A DNA stretch of 34,938 bases, from the IMG/VR virus record IMGVR_UViG_3300045999_008542, positions 1-34,938 of that record; one strand, 5' to 3'. This document shows, piece after piece, positions 3,027 to 32,878 of the stretch. The first letter of the stretch is position 1; each line of letters opens with the position of its first letter. A program made the position numbers and the translations under genes. This stretch comes from a virus. The notes below the pieces were generated by a model. It was not told the origin of the DNA. It saw only the letters and a program-made list of their open reading frames with translations, and did not search any database.

Positions 3027-4650
3027 AAACTGGTGGCAGCGCCTGTTCAGTCCCGGCACCAGTGACACCCGCAAACGGGTGCAGCGCGTCCGGGAATCGA
3101 CCCGGCTGACCGAAGCCTCGGAGCTGTTCGCCGGCATCCCCAACTACCCGTACCTAGATGGCCGGGACCTCTACGGTGAGATGGGCCCCTACGGGTTCTT
3201 GGACGGTGGCCCCACGGCCAGCCTGACCCGCCGGGACAACCGGATGACGGGCGAAATCCTGCCCGCCGCCATCACCTGGTGGCAGCTCAAGGTGATCCGG
3301 GACCGGGCTAGGCAGATCGCCAGGGGCAACGAGTACAGCATCGCCGCGATCAACGCGTGCCGGTCCTACGTCGTGGGCACCGGGTTCAAGTATTCGGTCG
3401 TGGCGAAAAAACGCCAGCAGGTGCCCGAGGACCTGCTGAACCGGGCCCAGGACATCCTGGACCTGTGGGCCGAACACAACAACCTGCCCGAGATCGAGGC
3501 CGAGATCGTCTACCGGCTGCACGCTGAGGGCGAGGCGTTCATCCGCACCTTCCGCGGCGAGGACGGCATGCTCCGGCTGCGGTTCATTGAGCCGGAATTG
3601 GTTCGCCCGCCCGCCGACGACACGACGCCGCAGTCCTCGTTCGGCATCCAGTGCAGCGACGAGGACATCCACGAGCGCGTCGGCTACTGGGTGGTCGAGC
3701 GCCCCTGGGAGGACCCGACGCCGACCCTGGTGCCCGCCGACGAGATCCTGCACCTGCGCAACAACGTCGAAAGCAACAGCAAGCGCGGCCTGCCGACCAT
3801 CTGGGCCGTCGAGAGCAACCTGCGAGCCGCGGAGGACATCCTGCAGTCGATGGTCTCCCTGGCCAAGGCCCGGGCCAAGGTGGCGATTATCCGTCGCGTC
3901 GCAGACACCCCGCCCGAGGCGATCGAGGAACTGACCAAGACCGCGACGGACTTCCAGGTCACCGACCCGACCACCAGCCAGACCACGAATATCAGCCGCC
4001 TGGGCTACGGCACCATTCTGACGGCCAGCGACAACGTCACCTACGAGTTCCCCGGCGCAAACCTGGGCAGCGCCGACATGGTGGAAACCCTGCGGGCCAA
4101 CCTGCGGGCCATCGCCGCCCGTTTCGGCCTGTCCGAGGCCATGCTGTCCGCCGATCCCTCCAGCGCCAACTACGCCAGCGCCCTGGTCGCCGAGGCGCCC
4201 GCCACCAAGCAACTGGAGCATTTCCAACACCTGCTGGCCGGAGCCCTGGGCACCCGCCGCACCAAGCCGGGCCGGTCCCTGGCGTGGCAGCAACTCAGCC
4301 TCGCCGTCGACGTCGGCCTGCTGCCGCGGGAGGTCCTGCGGATGATTGACGTCCAGTGCGACGTCCCCACGGTGGCCAGTCGCGACAAGGCCGCCGAAGC
4401 CAACCAACACCAGACCTATGTCGGCATGGGCGTCATGTCCAAAAGCCAGGTGCGGGCCGCTATCGGCCTGGACGATGCAGCGACCAATGAACAAATCGAG
4501 CGCGAGCGGCAGCACGAGGCCGAGTTCGCCGCCAAATACGGGCCAGCCAATCCGCCCCAACCGGGGCAGGCCGACCCGGGGCAACCGGAACCGCCGAATG
4601 GCGCCATACCTAGTGGCATCCCGACGCCGCCGCAACCCGACCGGCCCTGA
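3022..4650 (+). CDS. Portal protein
   Basis: Forms the dodecameric ring at the capsid vertex through which DNA is packaged. The 542-residue protein has the lambda-type portal pattern: an N-terminal segment with RNEYSIAAINACRSYVVG-like helices (about 100-125), a central alpha/beta region with RFIEPELV and DEILHLRNN, and a long helical C-terminus with LRAIAARFGLSEAML (about 360-375). The last 40 residues are Pro/Gly-rich and probably disordered. It starts at the repeated element at 3008-3026 and follows terL as expected. The sigma-factor gene begins inside its last 53 nt in another frame. Confidence 0.9.
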   Translation: MANWWQRLFSPGTSDTRKRVQRVRESTRLTEASELFAGIPNYPYLDGRDLYGEMGPYGFLDGGPTASLTRRDNRMTGEILPAAITWWQLKVIRDRARQIARGNEYSIAAINACRSYVVGTGFKYSVVAKKRQQVPEDLLNRAQDILDLWAEHNNLPEIEAEIVYRLHAEGEAFIRTFRGEDGMLRLRFIEPELVRPPADDTTPQSSFGIQCSDEDIHERVGYWVVERPWEDPTPTLVPADEILHLRNNVESNSKRGLPTIWAVESNLRAAEDILQSMVSLAKARAKVAIIRRVADTPPEAIEELTKTATDFQVTDPTTSQTTNISRLGYGTILTASDNVTYEFPGANLGSADMVETLRANLRAIAARFGLSEAMLSADPSSANYASALVAEAPATKQLEHFQHLLAGALGTRRTKPGRSLAWQQLSLAVDVGLLPREVLRMIDVQCDVPTVASRDKAAEANQHQTYVGMGVMSKSQVRAAIGLDDAATNEQIERERQHEAEFAAKYGPANPPQPGQADPGQPEPPNGAIPSGIPTPPQPDRP

Positions 4651-25013: not shown

Positions 25014-26147
25014 ATGGTCGGCGGCCATCCCCTAGCCGATGCACCACTAGCCGACCTTGGCATTGTCCAGGGATCGGCCAGCGGCGCTTTGGTTACGGTG
25101 ACCGTCAGCACCCAGGCGGGAAGCGCCAGCGGCACGGGATCCGCCACCGGCGTCCTCGGCACTGTCTCAGTGTCTGGCCTGGCTGGATCGGCAACCGGCA
25201 CGGCTAGCAGATCTGGCACCCTGCCAACCGTCACCCTGACAACGGCAGCAGGTTCAGCGACTGGCAGCGCGGCACGGTCTGGCACTTTGCCGACTGCCGC
25301 CTTGACAGCACCAGTCGGGACTGCCAGCGGCAGCGCCAGTAGCAGCGGGGCCCTTGGCACGATCACCACCTCGCCGGCCTCCGGCAACGCCGGCGTGTCT
25401 GTAGTCGGCTCCGGCACCTTGCCGACGGTCACCCTATCGGCCATGGTAGGCGCGGCTACGGGCAGCGCGACCCGCTCCAGCGCCCTGCCGACGGTTCCAG
25501 TCTCTGCACCAGCGGCCACGGCAACCGGTTCGGCCAGCACCTCGGTCGTGCTGCCGGGCGTGTCGGTCAGCACCCAGGCGGGGACGGCAACCGGCACCGC
25601 GACCGGCTCGGGCCTGGTGGGCACCGTCTCGGCCTCTGGCCTGACCGGAGCTGCCACCGGATCGGCCAGCCGCTCCGCCACCCTGCCCACGGTCACCCTG
25701 GCGGCACCCAGCGCCACCGCCGCCGGATCGGCTTCGGCCAGCGGACTGGTCGGCACCGTCACCATCTTGGCCCCCGCGGCAACCGCGGAAGGCGGAGCCA
25801 CGGCCCAGGGCTCCGGCCCGACGGTCACTGTGGCGCCCCTGGCGGGCACCGTGTCCGCATCGGCCACCTGCTCCGGCACCCTGCCCGCCGTTTCGCTGGC
25901 GACTTGGTCCGGCACCGGGTCCGGGTCCGCTTTCATCGGCTCTGGGCTGCCCGCCCTGCAAATTCTCGCCTGCGCTGGCGGCGCCATCGCCATCAACCCG
26001 CCTGGCAAGGCAATTGCCTGGACGCAACGCATCAGCCACGCCGGCCCCAATGGCAAGGCGATCACCTGGGACGGGCGCGTGGCCAAGGCGACCGCCCGGG
26101 TCGTCAGGACGCGGGCGGCGACCAGACACCTGGAACCGGTCGGCTAG
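25014..26147 (+). CDS. 22-residue repeat protein, 377 aa
   Basis: After a 30-residue head (LADAPLADLG), about 13 units of 22 residues follow up to residue 305, with consensus xGSATGSAxxSGTLPTVTLxAP: alternating small residues then a LPTV strand. The DNA period is 66 bp with diverged copies, so the repeats are old. The C-terminal 60 residues are basic and non-repetitive (KAIAWTQRISHAG, DGRVAKATARV). It probably forms an elongated beta structure on the tail. The unit resembles the 23-residue repeat of the 913-residue protein at 16649. Confidence 0.65.
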   Translation: MVGGHPLADAPLADLGIVQGSASGALVTVTVSTQAGSASGTGSATGVLGTVSVSGLAGSATGTASRSGTLPTVTLTTAAGSATGSAARSGTLPTAALTAPVGTASGSASSSGALGTITTSPASGNAGVSVVGSGTLPTVTLSAMVGAATGSATRSSALPTVPVSAPAATATGSASTSVVLPGVSVSTQAGTATGTATGSGLVGTVSASGLTGAATGSASRSATLPTVTLAAPSATAAGSASASGLVGTVTILAPAATAEGGATAQGSGPTVTVAPLAGTVSASATCSGTLPAVSLATWSGTGSGSAFIGSGLPALQILACAGGAIAINPPGKAIAWTQRISHAGPNGKAITWDGRVAKATARVVRTRAATRHLEPVG

Positions 26148-26438: not shown

Positions 26439-26781
26439 GTGGTTCCGCGACCTGTGGTTTTCCCTGCGCACCGGCGTCTGGCACGCATGGGGCAGCACGC
26501 GGCGGTCCAGCGACTGGGGCCCGCTCCGGGACCGGTTCGTGGCGGAGAATCCGTTCTGCGCCGGCTGCTCCCGGCAGACCATGCTGGAGGTCCACCATAT
26601 AACGCCCTACCACGTGCGGCCCGACTTGGAATGCGACGAGGGCAACCTGGTCGTGTTATGTCGCAATTGCCACTACACGTTCGGCCACCTGCGCGACTGG
26701 CGCCTGGCCAACCCCCACGTGCTGGAGGACGCCGGGGCCTACCGGCGGCGGTTCACGGAGGCGCGGGCGGCCAAGTCCTAG
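26431..26781 (+). CDS. HNH endonuclease
   Basis: A 116-residue HNH nuclease. Two zinc-binding CxxC pairs (C43/C46 and C77/C80) frame the catalytic His in VHHITPY (H55-H56), Asn72 in GNLVVLC and a final His81/His86 in CHYTFGH. In many tailed phages an HNH protein assists packaging-related cleavage; here it lies at the end of the structural genes rather than next to terminase. Its TAG (26779-26781) shares the palindrome CTAG with the stop of the convergent integrase gene. Confidence 0.85.
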   Translation: MGEWFRDLWFSLRTGVWHAWGSTRRSSDWGPLRDRFVAENPFCAGCSRQTMLEVHHITPYHVRPDLECDEGNLVVLCRNCHYTFGHLRDWRLANPHVLEDAGAYRRRFTEARAAKS

Positions 26782-27965
26782 CCGAACCGCTCCACCACTT
26801 CCTCCACCACCCGCCGGTGGATCTGCGCGTACCGCCCGGTGATCGACCCCGAACCCGTCCGCAGCGTGGCGCCGCCCCCGTGGCCCAGAATCGCCCCCAC
26901 GATGCCCTCGTCGATGCCATGCGACCGCAGCCAAGTGGCCGCGCTGTGGCGGATCTGCCGCGGGCTGTAGCGAGGCATCATCGGCAGCGGGGCCTTCTTG
27001 CTCGGCTTACGTCCGAGCTTCGCCCATTTCTCGGCCACCACGGCGTCGGCCCGCTTCATGGCGTATTCAAACGCCTGCCGATACCCGGACGCTGTGGCGG
27101 GGCCATGGTAGGGCACGCCGCGGATCTGGTGCTTCCCGGGGAACAGCCAGTCCTCCGGGCGCCGCTTCAGGATCCGGGCCAGGGCCCGCCGGGCCCGGGG
27201 ACCCACCAGCACCGCCAGGCGCTGGCCCCGCCAGGCGCCCTTGTGCTGGACGGGCACGTACCGCCAGGGTTTTCCCGTCTGGTCCAGGTCTTCCGCCCGC
27301 ACCGACAGCGCCGTCTCGACCCGCTGGCCGGTGAACAGGTGAAACAGGAACGCAGCCCGCCACCGCGGCTTCAGGTACCGCCAGATGCGGAACAAGTGCA
27401 GCGGGGGGATCGCCTCGACCACCCGGGAGGCCTTGGCCTGGGTGGGCCGGAGTCTTTCCCAGCCCTTCAGCGTGGCGAGTTGCCCCGCCTGGATCCAGCC
27501 GCGGGCCTCCGCCCAGGTGAACGACCGGACAATCCGGCCCAGGTACTCGTGGATGGTCTTGCGGGTTTTGCCCTCCAGGACCAGCTGGTCCCGGACCTGC
27601 AGCAGGTGCTCCCGGCTGAACGCGTCCAGGTGCAGGTCCTGGAACGGCATGAACAGTTTCACCGCCTGCCGGCAGACGCCGACCTCGCCGGAGGGGCGCC
27701 CGTCGGCCCGCCGGTACCGCTCGTGGCACTGGTCCAGCCACAGGGCCCACAGGGCGGAGCAAACCAGGGGCCGGGAGGGCGAGTCCACCCGGGCCGGCTC
27801 GGCCTTTTCCCGCAGGAAGTCGGCCAGCCATTTTTTGTAATTGGCTTCCGCCGCGGGGGTTCCGGCGTGCCCCATCATGACCTGCTTGCCGGTCCGGGGG
27901 TCCTTCACATAGGCCCACCCCGTCCGCTTGTGCCGCAGCAGTTTTGGGATCCGAATCCCGCCCAA
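26778..27965 (-). CDS. int: Tyrosine site-specific integrase
   Basis: Integrates the phage at the attachment core encoded just upstream of it. Read from a TTG at 27965, the protein has 395 residues: an N-terminal arm-type domain (IPKLLRHKRTGWAYVKDP), a core-binding domain with helices, and the catalytic domain with FTGQRVETALSVRAEDL (first Arg), VQHKGAWRG (Lys), RQIRHSAATWLR (second Arg), LGHGGG and the nucleophile Tyr in TGRYAQI. The usual HxLRH box is RQIRH, so the first His is replaced. The frame stays open to 28319 only because it reads through the attachment core, so I take the TTG; the exact start is uncertain. Confidence 0.85.
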   Translation of the reverse strand: MGGIRIPKLLRHKRTGWAYVKDPRTGKQVMMGHAGTPAAEANYKKWLADFLREKAEPARVDSPSRPLVCSALWALWLDQCHERYRRADGRPSGEVGVCRQAVKLFMPFQDLHLDAFSREHLLQVRDQLVLEGKTRKTIHEYLGRIVRSFTWAEARGWIQAGQLATLKGWERLRPTQAKASRVVEAIPPLHLFRIWRYLKPRWRAAFLFHLFTGQRVETALSVRAEDLDQTGKPWRYVPVQHKGAWRGQRLAVLVGPRARRALARILKRRPEDWLFPGKHQIRGVPYHGPATASGYRQAFEYAMKRADAVVAEKWAKLGRKPSKKAPLPMMPRYSPRQIRHSAATWLRSHGIDEGIVGAILGHGGGATLRTGSGSITGRYAQIHRRVVEEVVERFG

Positions 27966-27992
27966 AGTTGTAAACCCCGCTAAGAGTTGTAA
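27966..27992. repeat. Integrase arm-type repeat pair, left
   Basis: Two copies of AGTTGTAA at 27966-27973 and 27985-27992, 19 bp apart and in the same direction. A second pair of the same octamer lies on the other side of the attachment core. Such paired short repeats flanking the core are what lambda-type integrases bind with their N-terminal domain. The first copy abuts the proposed integrase start, so binding could also repress int. Confidence 0.5.
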
Positions 27993-28039
27993 GATTTTGC
28001 GGGCGGTTTTTTGGCGTTTTTCCCTTGTTTTCCAGCTAT

Positions 28040-28084
28040 TCGGGGCAACAGGATTCGAACCTGCGACCTCTTGGTCCCGAACCA
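28040..28084 (-). other. Attachment core (attP): 3' part of tRNA-Pro(CGG)
   Basis: Read on the minus strand this is a tRNA 3' part: anticodon loop TTCGGGA with anticodon CGG, 3' anticodon stem CCAAG, variable loop AGGTC, T-arm GCAGG-TTCGAAT-CCTGT, and acceptor 3' strand ending GCCCCG plus A. The 5' half of a tRNA is missing: CCAAG has no full CTTGG partner upstream. A partial tRNA next to an integrase gene is the standard phage attachment core. Phage genes lie on both sides, so this is best read as attP. Confidence 0.8.
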
Positions 28085-28144
28085 CCCCCCGAGAATTGCC
28101 GAAACCGCTTAAAAACAAGGCAAAAACATCGAAAAACCGCTCGT

Positions 28145-28181
28145 CCGTTTCGTCTGTATTGTACCGTTTCGTCCGTTTCGT
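28145..28181. repeat. Three CCGTTTCGT direct repeats
   Basis: CCGTTTCGT at 28145-28153, 28164-28172 and 28173-28181, between the core and the right arm-type repeats. The last two are directly adjacent and the first is 10 bp away. They could be excisionase or accessory-protein sites in the attachment region; this is inference from position. Confidence 0.4.
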
Positions 28182-28222
28182 GCGCTGTAAAACAAGGGTT
28201 TTTTCGCAAGCCAATTTCGGAA

Positions 28223-28239
28223 AGTTGTAAAAGTTGTAA
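28223..28239. repeat. Integrase arm-type repeat pair, right
   Basis: AGTTGTAA at 28223-28230 and 28232-28239, one base apart, same direction as the left pair. With 27966-27992 they make four copies around the core in a 275-bp stretch with no convincing gene, so an integrase arm-binding role is likely. Confidence 0.5.
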
Positions 28240-28245
28240 ATTTCG

Positions 28246-28273
28246 TTGACAGACCACCTGAGTACGGTAAAAC
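28246..28273 (+). promoter_or_regulatory. Candidate promoter for the excisionase-like gene
   Basis: TTGACA (28246-28251), 16 bp, TAAAAC (28268-28273). It lies just right of the arm-type repeats and points to the gene at 28403, leaving a leader of about 120 nt. The -35 is perfect; the -10 is weak. In 28274-28402 I see no gene, only a short inverted repeat TGTAC/GTACA at 28300-28318. Confidence 0.4.
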
Positions 28274-28402
28274 GGTCAAAAGTGAACGACTTGTCCGGTT
28301 GTACTGAACATGCGTACACTACAGCATCGGGGGACGAGAAACCGATCCAGGCTGCGAAGGATCAACGCCTGAACTGGGGACTGGTGGAAGTGGAATGAAC
28401 AA

Positions 28403-29005: not shown

Positions 29006-29137
29006 ATGACCAACTACCTGCGACTCCTTTGTGCGCTGGCCTGCGGGTCACTGGTTGGCTGTTCGGCGATGAGGACGGAAGTCTCGGTGACCTACCAGTC
29101 CGGGGACTGTGCGGTCAGTGCAAAGGCATGGAGGTGA
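29006..29137 (+). CDS. Small lipoprotein, 43 aa
   Basis: First gene after the early promoter. The 43-residue product has a lipoprotein signal: basic/polar start MTNYLR, hydrophobic core LLCALACGS and a lipobox LVGC with Cys19 as the lipidated residue, followed by SAM and a 22-residue mature part. GAGGG at 28995-28999 lies 6 nt before the ATG. It ends 2 nt before the CsrA gene. Small phage lipoproteins expressed early or in lysogeny often block superinfection or receptor use; that role is inference. Confidence 0.6.
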   Translation: MTNYLRLLCALACGSLVGCSAMRTEVSVTYQSGDCAVSAKAWR

Positions 29138-29139
29138 GC

Positions 29140-29355
29140 ATGTTGGTCTTGAAGGTAAACCACGGCGGGTTTGTCGAGCTCGACACCGGGCGAGAGATCA
29201 TCCGCGTCCACGTGAACAAGGCGGACGACTTTGGCGTGTCGCTGGGTTTTGACGCGCCCCTGTCGGTGCGTGTTGTCCGCGACACCGTTCTTGCCAGGCT
29301 TTACGCCACGGAGCCCACCATCAACCCGCTGGAGGAAGCCCATGTCCGCAGCTAA
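29140..29355 (+). CDS. csrA: CsrA-family RNA-binding regulator
   Basis: A 71-residue protein that aligns with CsrA along most of its length: MLVL start, VHVNKADDFGVSLGF, then the conserved APxxVxVxR block as DAPLSVRVVRDTVLARL, with Arg47 at the place of the RNA-contacting Arg44 of E. coli CsrA. Residues 5-18 diverge from the usual SRKVGE segment. CsrA dimers bind GGA motifs in leader RNAs and alter translation. GGAGGTGAG precedes the ATG at 29140. A phage copy in the early region could redirect host or phage mRNA use. The C-terminal tail (55-71) is longer than usual. Confidence 0.72.
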   Translation: MLVLKVNHGGFVELDTGREIIRVHVNKADDFGVSLGFDAPLSVRVVRDTVLARLYATEPTINPLEEAHVRS

Positions 29356-30638: not shown

Positions 30639-31625
30639 ATGTTTCAACGCGCTACACGACAACAGGCCAAGCTGCGCCTGGGCATCACCGGCCCGAGCGG
30701 CTCCGGCAAGACCTACAGCGCCCTGCTGCTGGCCAAGGGCATTGGCGGCAAGATCGCCTGCATCGACACCGAGCAGGGGAGCGCCAGTCTGTACGCCCAC
30801 CTGGCGGACTTCGACACCCTGAACCTGGAGCCCCCCTACCGGCCCGAGCGGTTCGTCGAGGCGCTGAAGGTCGCGGAGGCCACCGGCTACGACGTGCTGG
30901 TGATTGACAGCATCACCCACGAGTGGAGCGGGTCGGGCGGCTGCCTGGAGCTGGTGGACGAGGTCGGGCGGGCCAAGTTCCGCGGGAACAACTGGTCGGC
31001 CTGGTCCGAGATCACCCCGCGGCACCGGGCGTTTTTGGACGCGATCCTGCACAGCAAAATGCACATTATCTGCACGCTGCGCAGCAAGACGGAGACCGCC
31101 CAGGTCGAAGACGGCGGGCGCAAAAAGGTCGTCAAACTCGGCATGAGAAGCGAGCAGCGCGACGGATTCGAGTATGAGCTGACCACGGTGCTGGACCTGT
31201 CACACGACGGGCACTATGCCACGGCCAGCAAAGACCGGTCGGGCCTGTTCAGCGACAAGGACCCCGAGCGGATCACCATCGCCACCGGGCAGCGCCTGCT
31301 GTCCTGGCTGAACAGTGGGGCGGCCCCTGCCCCTGAAACCACCCCGGCACCTGGGCGGGAAGCAGCCCCAACTCCTGCACCCGTCCAGGTGACCGAGGCG
31401 GCGCCGGTGATGGCTGACGAAAGCACGCTGAAACGCATGGCCAGCCTAATTACCAAGGCCAAGGGGTTTGGGTTGATCGACGACCCCGAAGCGTATCGGC
31501 AAAAGCTGCGGCACACCTACCTGGTGCAGTCTGCACGCGATTTGACCATGCAACAGGCCGAGGAGGTTATCTCCCAACTGGTTGAGGCCATCCAGGAACG
31601 GGAAGCGATTGCAGCGACGGTGTGA
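30639..31625 (+). CDS. RecA-like ATPase, Sak4-type
   Basis: A 328-residue ATPase with Walker A GPSGSGKT (18-25), a second conserved acidic segment CIDTEQGS (41-48) and Walker B VLVIDSI (86-92). The fold matches phage single-strand annealing/recombination ATPases of the Sak4 kind (AAA_24). Residues 225-260 are a Pro/Ala linker and 265-325 a small helical domain. AGGAG precedes the ATG at 30639. It is paired with the SSB-like gene just downstream, as usual for Sak4, which works on SSB-coated DNA. Confidence 0.8.
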   Translation: MFQRATRQQAKLRLGITGPSGSGKTYSALLLAKGIGGKIACIDTEQGSASLYAHLADFDTLNLEPPYRPERFVEALKVAEATGYDVLVIDSITHEWSGSGGCLELVDEVGRAKFRGNNWSAWSEITPRHRAFLDAILHSKMHIICTLRSKTETAQVEDGGRKKVVKLGMRSEQRDGFEYELTTVLDLSHDGHYATASKDRSGLFSDKDPERITIATGQRLLSWLNSGAAPAPETTPAPGREAAPTPAPVQVTEAAPVMADESTLKRMASLITKAKGFGLIDDPEAYRQKLRHTYLVQSARDLTMQQAEEVISQLVEAIQEREAIAATV

Positions 31626-31631
31626 CCAACC

Positions 31632-31674
31632 CCACCCGACTAGCGGCCCCCGGGAGCAAGCCCCGGGCGGGTGG
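31632..31674 (+). ncRNA. Two-stem RNA structure, copy 1
   Basis: Starts 6 nt after the ATPase stop. Outer stem CCACCCG (31632-31638) with CGGGTGG (31668-31674), a 10-nt 5' linker ending GGCC, and inner stem CCCGGG (31649-31654) with CCCGGG (31662-31667) around the 7-nt loop AGCAAGC. The 3' strands are directly joined, so the two helices could stack. The same design with compensating base changes occurs at 32225-32266. A further hairpin TCCCC/GGGGA follows at 31676-31690. It has no T-tract, so a simple terminator is unlikely. Confidence 0.55.
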
Positions 31675-31734
31675 TTCCCCAGAGCGGGGATCTAGGACTG
31701 TGAACGGTTTTGGCATCAAGCAGGAGCAGCAGCC

Positions 31735-32217
31735 ATGTCAGATTTCAGCGAGTTCGACGACTTTTTCAGCCCATCCGAGCCCAAGAAATTTCTGTCCATG
31801 AACGACCTTCCAGATGGGCAGTACGAGTTCACCATCAAGGAAGCGAAGCCTAGCACCTTGGGAAAAACCGGCGAAAAAATCGTCGAGTTTAGCCTGCTGA
31901 TTGCCCGCGGCCCCATGCAGGGCAGCGAGTTTTACAGGACCTACTTTTTCCGCAACGACATGTCCGTCAACATGTTTGGCGCCGACCTCGTCCTGCTGGG
32001 ATTGCCCGCCCAGACATGGACCAAGGAACACGGCAAAAAGTTCAGCGTGGAGATGCCAAAGGCTCTGCCCAGTCTGAAGGGCAAGACCTTCAGCGGCTCG
32101 ATCAAGACCACTGAAAAGGATGGCAGGTCCTACAAGAATCTGCGCATTGGCAGCCTGGTCAACGGTGCCCCCAAGGTGGCCATGCCCGCGGCCAGCCTCG
32201 ATGAAATGCCCTTCTGA
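31735..32217 (+). CDS. SSB-like protein (DUF669-type)
   Basis: A 160-residue protein with an OB-like strand pattern (DGQYEFTIKEAKPS, KIVEFSLLIARG, RTYFFRND, KTFSGSIKTTEKDGR) and a final SLDEMPF. That acidic tip with a terminal Phe is typical of single-stranded DNA-binding proteins, which use it to recruit partners. It follows the RecA-like ATPase, its usual partner. Composition is lower in GC than the neighbours. The gene is bracketed by two copies of the same RNA structure. Confidence 0.65.
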   Translation: MSDFSEFDDFFSPSEPKKFLSMNDLPDGQYEFTIKEAKPSTLGKTGEKIVEFSLLIARGPMQGSEFYRTYFFRNDMSVNMFGADLVLLGLPAQTWTKEHGKKFSVEMPKALPSLKGKTFSGSIKTTEKDGRSYKNLRIGSLVNGAPKVAMPAASLDEMPF

Positions 32218-32224
32218 AAAAACA

Positions 32225-32266
32225 CCATCGGCAGGCAGGCCCCAGGGTTCAAGCCCCTGGCGATGG
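32225..32266 (+). ncRNA. Two-stem RNA structure, copy 2
   Basis: Starts 7 nt after the SSB-like stop. Outer stem CCATCG (32225-32230) with CGATGG (32261-32266), an 11-nt 5' linker ending GGCC, inner stem CCAGGG (32242-32247) with CCCTGG (32255-32260), loop TTCAAGC. Relative to copy 1 the third inner pair changes from C-G to A-T and the outer stem also changes on both strands, so pairing is conserved. The loop end CAAGC and the linker end GGCC are kept. Confidence 0.55.
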
Positions 32267-32296
32267 GATGGCAGGACGGATTCTCCTGGAGGCGCT

Positions 32297-32878
32297 ATGA
32301 GGGCGGGCGATCATTTGACCGTCGGGGACTACGAGACCGAAAGGCAAGCAGAGGAGGCTTTTGACGTTGCAGTGAACACGAAGCATTGGACCATACACCG
32401 GGAAGTTCAGGGGCGATCCAACGCCCCGAACGTCTTCAGCAATGACACGGTGAACGTGCGCATAGACCGCGTGCTGGTCCCAACCCCTGAGCTGAACGAC
32501 CTGGGGTGGTGGCTTGGGCCGGTCGGCGTGGAGATCAAGAAATCTGGCGAGAAGATTGGCCCGCCGATCTGCCAGATCCGCGACTACAGCCACTGCGTGT
32601 TCCGCCTCGATCTGGGATCCGGTCCGCACTACACGGTGCTGAGAAATATTTTTTTGTTCCCAGCCCTGGCGCCGTCCGGGGCGGTCCTCAGCATCCTGAC
32701 CGCGGAGCGGATTGGGTTTGCTTCTATCGGTCGTTTTTACAGCCGGGAGGGCCTTTCCTTCACCCGGGCCGGTGACGCCCTGTCGTTCTACCTGGCAGGG
32801 CAACGGGTCTATTGCAGCGTGGAAGGGCCAAGGATCCAGTCGGCCATGCGTTCCGGCGTCAAACACGGGAGCAGGTGA
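32297..32878 (+). CDS. PD-(D/E)XK nuclease candidate
   Basis: A 193-residue protein with the core of a PD-(D/E)XK nuclease: RIDRVL with Asp57, then GVEIKKS with Glu79 and Lys81, then QIRDY (Gln93 and Tyr97), the QxxxY box of the RecB/Cas4-like branch. GGAGG precedes the ATG at 32297. In this neighbourhood (annealing ATPase, SSB-like protein, primase-helicase) it may supply an exonuclease or resolvase. Identification rests on motif order and spacing only. Confidence 0.55.
   Translation: MRAGDHLTVGDYETERQAEEAFDVAVNTKHWTIHREVQGRSNAPNVFSNDTVNVRIDRVLVPTPELNDLGWWLGPVGVEIKKSGEKIGPPICQIRDYSHCVFRLDLGSGPHYTVLRNIFLFPALAPSGAVLSILTAERIGFASIGRFYSREGLSFTRAGDALSFYLAGQRVYCSVEGPRIQSAMRSGVKHGSR

Follow-up and report, generated by a model that had tools for sequence, protein, structure and literature searches.

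A tRNA-like two-stem RNA element past viral stop codons, a candidate punctuation mark for polycistronic mRNA in viruses of bacteria and archaea

Introduction

The t-elements, found in Haloferax upstream of 5S rRNA and in plant mitochondria, are tRNA-like processing signals between genes, and in Haloferax they serve as substrates of both RNase P and tRNase Z (PMC4326828). In animal mitochondrial tRNA punctuation, tRNA-shaped marks stand between genes, and mascRNA/menRNA (RF01684), a tRNA-like element at the 3′ end of eukaryotic lncRNA, sets an RNA end via RNase P and RNase Z. Minimal model substrates of RNase P (pATSer type) consist of an acceptor stem, a short 5′-side linker and a T-arm. REP elements, by comparison, are multi-copy host repeats that form palindromic RNA shortly past stop codons. 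To our knowledge, the means by which phages set different mRNA lifetimes within one transcript are poorly known beyond a few models.

Here we analyzed a window of 34,938 bases, an IMG/VR virus record with linear ends, in which two copies of a small RNA element flank an SSB-like gene. The element resembles t-elements as a tRNA-like processing signal between genes, but it comprises only an acceptor-like stem, a D-loop-like GG and a T-arm in ~40 nt, is viral and tied to stop codons, recurs many times within a genome and mostly has a second hairpin behind it; its cleavage is putative. As in animal mitochondria, such marks would free single mRNAs, although the viral marks are not tRNA genes and carry no anticodon. 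mascRNA/menRNA has a fuller cloverleaf-like fold, and the viral element is not a member of that family. Its topology is the same as that of pATSer-type substrates, which are laboratory constructs with a 3′ CCA, whereas the viral elements are natural and lack CCA. In contrast to REPs, it is viral, varies in sequence and has a T-loop and an elbow.

Results

Two elements flank the SSB-like gene

Genes on the + strand at the site run in the order Gp157/Mu Gam-like, AAA_24 protein, copy 1, SSB, copy 2 and an unknown gene (Table 1). Both copies consist of an acceptor-like stem, a 10–11 nt linker, a T-stem-like helix and a 7-nt T-loop-like loop, with no linker on the 3′ side. The initial annotation had described twin two-stem structures beside this gene, and its coordinates, spacers, loop size and missing 3′ linker all agree with ours. 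Its end point of 32266 holds for the element itself; a second hairpin follows each copy.

The 25-mer pattern common to the two copies matches the window twice, against 0.01 matches expected. Consistently, a structural scan returned 2 matches in the window and 0 in 60 dinucleotide shuffles. Folding-energy z-scores of the bare elements were −1.0 for copy 1 and −1.2 for copy 2, and in the best single-sequence fold of copy 2, part of the linker pairs in place of the inner stem. Because energy alone gives only weak support, the evidence rests on comparison. ARAGORN called no tRNA in the window.

Table 1 Coordinates of the two elements and adjoining features in the window
Feature	Position	Strand	Remark
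AAA_24 / phrog_1366 gene	30639..31625	+	Sak4 a weaker match; stop precedes copy 1
Copy 1, whole: CCACCCG-ACTAGCGGCC-CCCGGG-AGCAAGC-CCCGGG-CGGGTGG	31632..31674	+	begins 6 nt past TGA at 31623..31625
Copy 1 acceptor-like outer stem, 5′ strand CCACCCG	31632..31638	+	
Copy 1 linker ACTAGCGGCC	31639..31648	+	AG at D-loop 18/19-like position
Copy 1 T-stem-like inner stem, 5′ strand CCCGGG	31649..31654	+	
Copy 1 7-nt loop AGCAAGC	31655..31661	+	G = T-loop position 55, then C56, A57
Copy 1 inner and outer 3′ strands CCCGGG+CGGGTGG	31662..31674	+	without 3′ linker
Second hairpin TCCCC-AGAGC-GGGGA	31676..31690	+	directly after copy 1
SSB-like gene, phrog_378	31735..32217	+	E 4.5e-7; between copies; stop precedes copy 2
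Copy 2, whole: CCATCG-GCAGGCAGGCC-CCAGGG-TTCAAGC-CCCTGG-CGATGG	32225..32266	+	begins 7 nt past TGA at 32215..32217
Copy 2 acceptor-like outer stem, 5′ strand CCATCG	32225..32230	+	
Copy 2 linker GCAGGCAGGCC	32231..32241	+	with GG
Copy 2 T-stem-like inner stem, 5′ strand CCAGGG	32242..32247	+	
Copy 2 7-nt loop TTCAAGC	32248..32254	+	matches tRNA T-loop consensus TTCRANN
Copy 2 inner and outer 3′ strands CCCTGG+CGATGG	32255..32266	+	without 3′ linker
Second hairpin CAGGA-CGGATTC-TCCTG	32272..32288	+	after copy 2

Several other features of the window were recorded. A short frame, ATGGCAGGACGG...CTATGA (32268–32300), opens immediately downstream of copy 2 and shares an ATGA overlap with the beginning of the following gene; an in-frame ATG stands at the equivalent place in relatives L006 and L070, and the frame is possibly due to chance. 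An ORF at 28025–28249, adjoining the integrase gene (26778–28319), has the sequence GFEPATSWSRTTP, of the kind typically seen antisense to a tRNA 3′ end, and is probably the phage attachment site by the integrase. Small CsrA-like proteins are encoded both in the window (29029–29355, MLVLKVNHGG...) and in phage L099 (2398–2673, MLVLSREVNER...). A gene at 25014–26147 is built of imperfect 66-base repeats, each encoding ~22 aa with many Thr, Ala, Gly and Ser residues.

The two-stem fold is kept by covariation in uncultured viruses

Relatives were found among other viral contigs. In two phages with related SSB genes (L003 and L004), the element lies 7 nt past the SSB stop codon and reads CCGCCG-GATGGCGTA-CCAGGG-ATCATTC-CCCTGG-CGGCGG, the linker of L004 being GCTGGCGTA. 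In L005, an element with outer strands CCACCG...CGGTGG starts 1 nt past the stop of an HNH gene, and L006 and L070 carry CCGGCCG-CGGTGGCGCATG-TCCGGG-TTCGACT-CCCGGA-CGGCTGG 5 nt past a Sak4-like stop. Comparison of seven sequences showed that 12 of 12 pairs hold, five of them with changes on both sides. A covariance model search added L082 (42.8 bits), L099 (58 bits) and L119 (46.3 bits), the last on a contig of a Planctomycetota MAG with integrase-like and SSB-like ORFs; covarying copies exist in other IMG/VR phages and in a planctomycete prophage-like contig, as the initial annotation had proposed to look for. Pairing over these 10 sequences was 100%, with a covariation score of 0.506 against 0.131 in shuffles. 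Pattern scans recovered a type with linker WAGCGGC and loop [TA]GCRAGC in L162, L166, L167, L169, L186, L202 (two copies) and L207, and a type with a canonical T-loop in L337 and L365.

For 30 diverse members, 94.2% of the cells were paired, while slid partners reached at most 59%. The covariation score was 0.652, compared with 0.145 in shuffles and at most 0.18 for slid partners, and changes on both sides occurred in 86 cells versus 28.5 in shuffles. Judged from these alignments, it is nearly certain that the two-stem fold is kept by covariation while the sequence changes, which upholds the earlier reading of base-pair differences between the two window copies.

A tblastn search of the phage collection with two SSB proteins gave no match, and ARAGORN called no tRNA on L325, L337, L356, L365 or L006. 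L099 also has another T-arm on its reverse strand (~3030–3120), immediately ahead of the gene that the element follows; this T-arm reads CCCGGTTCAATTCCGGG, with CGGGTT after it.

Cultured bacterial and archaeal viruses carry up to ~11 copies

BLAST with L337 matched T-arms of mycobacteriophage tRNA-Leu genes as well as intergenic sites in Mycobacterium phage Azrael100 and halovirus HRTV-4. The HRTV-4 element, TAA followed directly by CCCGC-TCGGAGTA-CGCGGG-TTCGACT-CCCGCG-GCGGG, abuts the stop codon of gene 25. Konstantine has seven elements (35, 9, 8, 7, 7, 52 and 6 nt past annotated CDS ends), Predator seven in 36 kb, and Gordonia phage Cafasso ~11 in 47 kb, located on either strand but always matching that of the preceding gene. 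HRTV-27 has four, three beginning exactly at a stop codon; Azrael100 has two, and SH1, HHTV-2 and HF2 have one each. The "twin" of the initial annotation was right for the window and too narrow for what is a large family with 1 to ~11 copies per virus. SH1 belongs to Varidnaviria and the other listed viruses to Duplodnaviria, so that the haloarchaeal carriers span two realms.

A structural scan of five viruses gave 16 matches against ~0.03 in dinucleotide shuffles, and a scan of lambda gave none. When run on lambda and 723 kb of near-random phage contigs, covariance model R3 returned a single marginal match (E 0.047); it also found Predator and Cafasso members outside its training set, 7 to 11 nt past stops where a gene end was annotated nearby.

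Larger tRNA-like folds also occur in such viruses. HRTV-27 (L376, 564–625) has a longer form in which an acceptor, a D-arm-like hairpin (GAG-AATTGGTAA-CTC) and a T-arm are present and the anticodon arm is missing; this form resembles an intermediate. Intergenic tRNA-type T-arms inside larger tRNA-like folds, with no tRNA annotation, were seen in Cafasso (L383, 481–540), Rhodococcus phage Maselop (L398, 327–469) and Bacteroides phage BF1-TP2 (L399, 267–447).

The element has the topology and elbow signature of a tRNA top half

The acceptor and T-stem helices of tRNA total 12 bp. In the viral family, two coaxial helices of 11–13 bp in total carry a 7-nt loop and a 5′ linker of 8–12 nt, and a 3′ linker is absent. 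The loop is TTCRANY in most members; other types (A and B), ATCRTTC and [TA]GCRAGC, depart from TTCRA. A G-C pair closes the loop in 30 of 30 members; the structural scan demands this pair, and the members found by covariance model agree. The acceptor-type helix on a T-arm with a 7-nt, G-C-closed T-loop places the element among tRNA-like elements, while the full cloverleaf with anticodon arm that defines a tRNA gene is missing, as is an encoded CCA after the acceptor. The layout of a T-arm stacked on an acceptor stem, remarked on in the initial annotation, is borne out.

Every linker has GG or AG in the D-loop position. Among structural-scan members, GG is present in 45 of 45 linkers (mean 32.9 and maximum 41 in 2000 shuffles of the linkers), HRTV-27:46692 and L179:3396 being left out as chance matches. 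In the viral elements, linker GG goes with loop U55 in 35 of 35 distinct combinations and linker AG with G55 in 11 of 11, with zero exceptions, an association that is partly forced since type A/B members were fetched by patterns fixing one side. Copy 1, L082, L119, L146, L202:798 and Predator:7758 were fetched without such patterns. Downstream of Konstantine gp57 and Predator gp52, genes of equal length at a similar place in two related phages, the elements read ACTGGC...TTCGAGT and ACCAGC...TGCGAGT, respectively, exactly the linker/loop double change. This covariation of the linker base with loop position 2 parallels that of G18 and U55 in the tRNA elbow.

The three bases after the acceptor-like 3′ strand are ACG in 19 of 45 elements, most of them from actinophages (Konstantine, L391; Cafasso, L394); haloviruses have CCT or CGT there.

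Elements lie at gene ends and are usually followed by a second hairpin

In 2.7 Mb of loci biased toward carriers, a scan itself blind to stop codons gave 25 structure-defined matches. Eighteen of these start within −4 to +16 nt of a stop that ends an ORF of 40 codons or more, compared with 14% of random positions. All elements in annotated viruses are co-directional with the preceding gene, and spacers are mostly 0–14 nt, some members having long ones (25–147 nt). A second hairpin (at least five Watson-Crick pairs, starting 0–8 nt past the element) was present in 31 of 47 members, compared with a mean of 1.7 and a maximum of 8 in shuffles; it is absent in about one-third of members.

Two further ideas were discarded: stop-codon readthrough or frameshifting, as the frames across the element are unrelated between loci, and a CsrA-binding GGA motif after the element (GGATG), which is missing from copy 1 and most members.

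Cellular genomes, Rfam and the literature

Among 392 Planctomycetota genomes searched with model R2, one, G019, was a true carrier, with two copies on a prophage-like contig. The L148 match is due to chance and lies inside a coding gene, and L149 (29.8 bits) was left out of the carrier count. Across 31 genomes of varied bacteria, model R3 found G019 again and a single Streptomyces match (L397, G427:C4:264858-264898, 33.5 bits), which is prophage or chance. With the best 15–150 candidates scored per genome, these searches exclude abundant use of the element but not rare use.

No Rfam family reached its gathering score for the element, in answer to a check that the initial annotation had called for; the only matches at that level were two true tRNAs in L218, apart from its element. 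The T-arm of copy 2 weakly matches mascRNA/menRNA, at 14.4 bits against a gathering score of 42.5. We found no description of the element in the open-licence literature, in line with the initial annotation; subscription journals were outside the scope of this search, so one may exist. Halovirus tRNA-like attP sites (PMC8707807, PMC7230728) and mycobacteriophage stoperators (PMC3029335) have been reported, and both differ from this element.

Discussion

We favor, with a probability of roughly 0.55, the reading that these elements are minimal t-elements that punctuate polycistronic viral mRNA and are cut by tRNA-processing enzymes (RNase P, RNase Z), as the known t-elements of Haloferax are. In such a mini t-element, the acceptor-like stem would stack on the T-arm, with the D-arm and anticodon arm shrunk to a linker (10–11 nt) whose R-G dinucleotide would dock in the T-loop in the manner of G18-G19 at the elbow of tRNA. 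Host RNase P would cut at the acceptor-like stem on its 5′ side, so that the upstream message ends a few bases beyond the stop codon; the 3′ side would be cut by RNase Z or a different nuclease. The downstream message would then start with a hairpin shielding its new 5′ end, and neighbors such as Sak4 and SSB may thereby gain separate mRNA lifetimes. The suggestion that the structures are a processing signal setting SSB dose survives as to processing and fails as to a device specific for SSB, since many unrelated genes precede the element.

The same structural evidence would equally serve a tRNA mimic that is bound without being cut, its elbow and acceptor held by a tRNA-handling protein (EF-Tu, the CCA-adding enzyme, TruB or TrmA, RNase P without cleavage, or a viral protein) that protects or regulates the mRNA. 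Such enzymes bind acceptor/T-arm minihelices, and the 3′ end of the viral element lacks CCA, so some tRNA enzymes would not act on it; yet gene-end placement, multi-copy genomes and the following hairpin fit punctuation better than a ligand switch, and we consider mere binding unlikely. More doubtful is a REP-like 3′ stabilizer or translation-end element, in which a helix by the stop blocks 3′–5′ exonucleases or slows the terminating ribosome. The short, tight spacer and the stable GC-rich stems suit such a role, but a simple stem would be enough for it, and the T-loop, linker GG, elbow covariation and zero 3′ linker would be superfluous.

An operator through which SSB protein regulates its own gene is suggested by the two copies flanking that gene in the window and by an SSB-like gene near the element in L003, L004, L006, L070, L082, L166, L169, L207 and L146. 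This association is real for ~10 loci, and a large share of it reflects the use of SSB and Sak4 genes to retrieve phages; the element is not restricted to ssb transcripts, as unrelated genes precede it in Konstantine, Predator, Cafasso, HRTV-27, L005 and L337, which makes the operator very improbable. Still harder to credit is action in DNA, as a single-stranded hairpin for replication start, recombination or mobility: replication genes are often nearby and the stems are GC-rich palindromes, but in annotated viruses the element always keeps to the sense strand of the preceding gene, its seven sense-strand G-U pairs become A-C mismatches on the other strand, and the T-loop and elbow rules are RNA features. 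Least probable of all is an intrinsic terminator or host REP-type repeat, the latter also raised in the initial annotation. Intergenic hairpins would be expected of either, but the hairpins here lack a U-run, no terminator-like site was found in 31400–32500, and the 392 Planctomycetota and 31 further whole genomes gave almost no matches among the 15–150 candidates scored in each, the one real planctomycete carrier being prophage-like.

Returning to minimal t-elements, we see about an even chance that they represent an undescribed RNA punctuation common to bacterial and archaeal viruses of two realms, in which ~40-nt tRNA mimics past stops, paired with a protective hairpin, would direct processing of polycistronic mRNA by host tRNA enzymes. 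Should cleavage occur, the cell's tRNA maturation enzymes would be put to work on mRNA by viruses ranging from planctomycete phages to haloarchaeal SH1. Punctuation of this mitochondria-like kind has not been described for phages in the literature searched. If the elements act in this way, many unexplained intergenic gaps would be accounted for, the element would offer an annotation marker, and RNase P would be a phage host factor.
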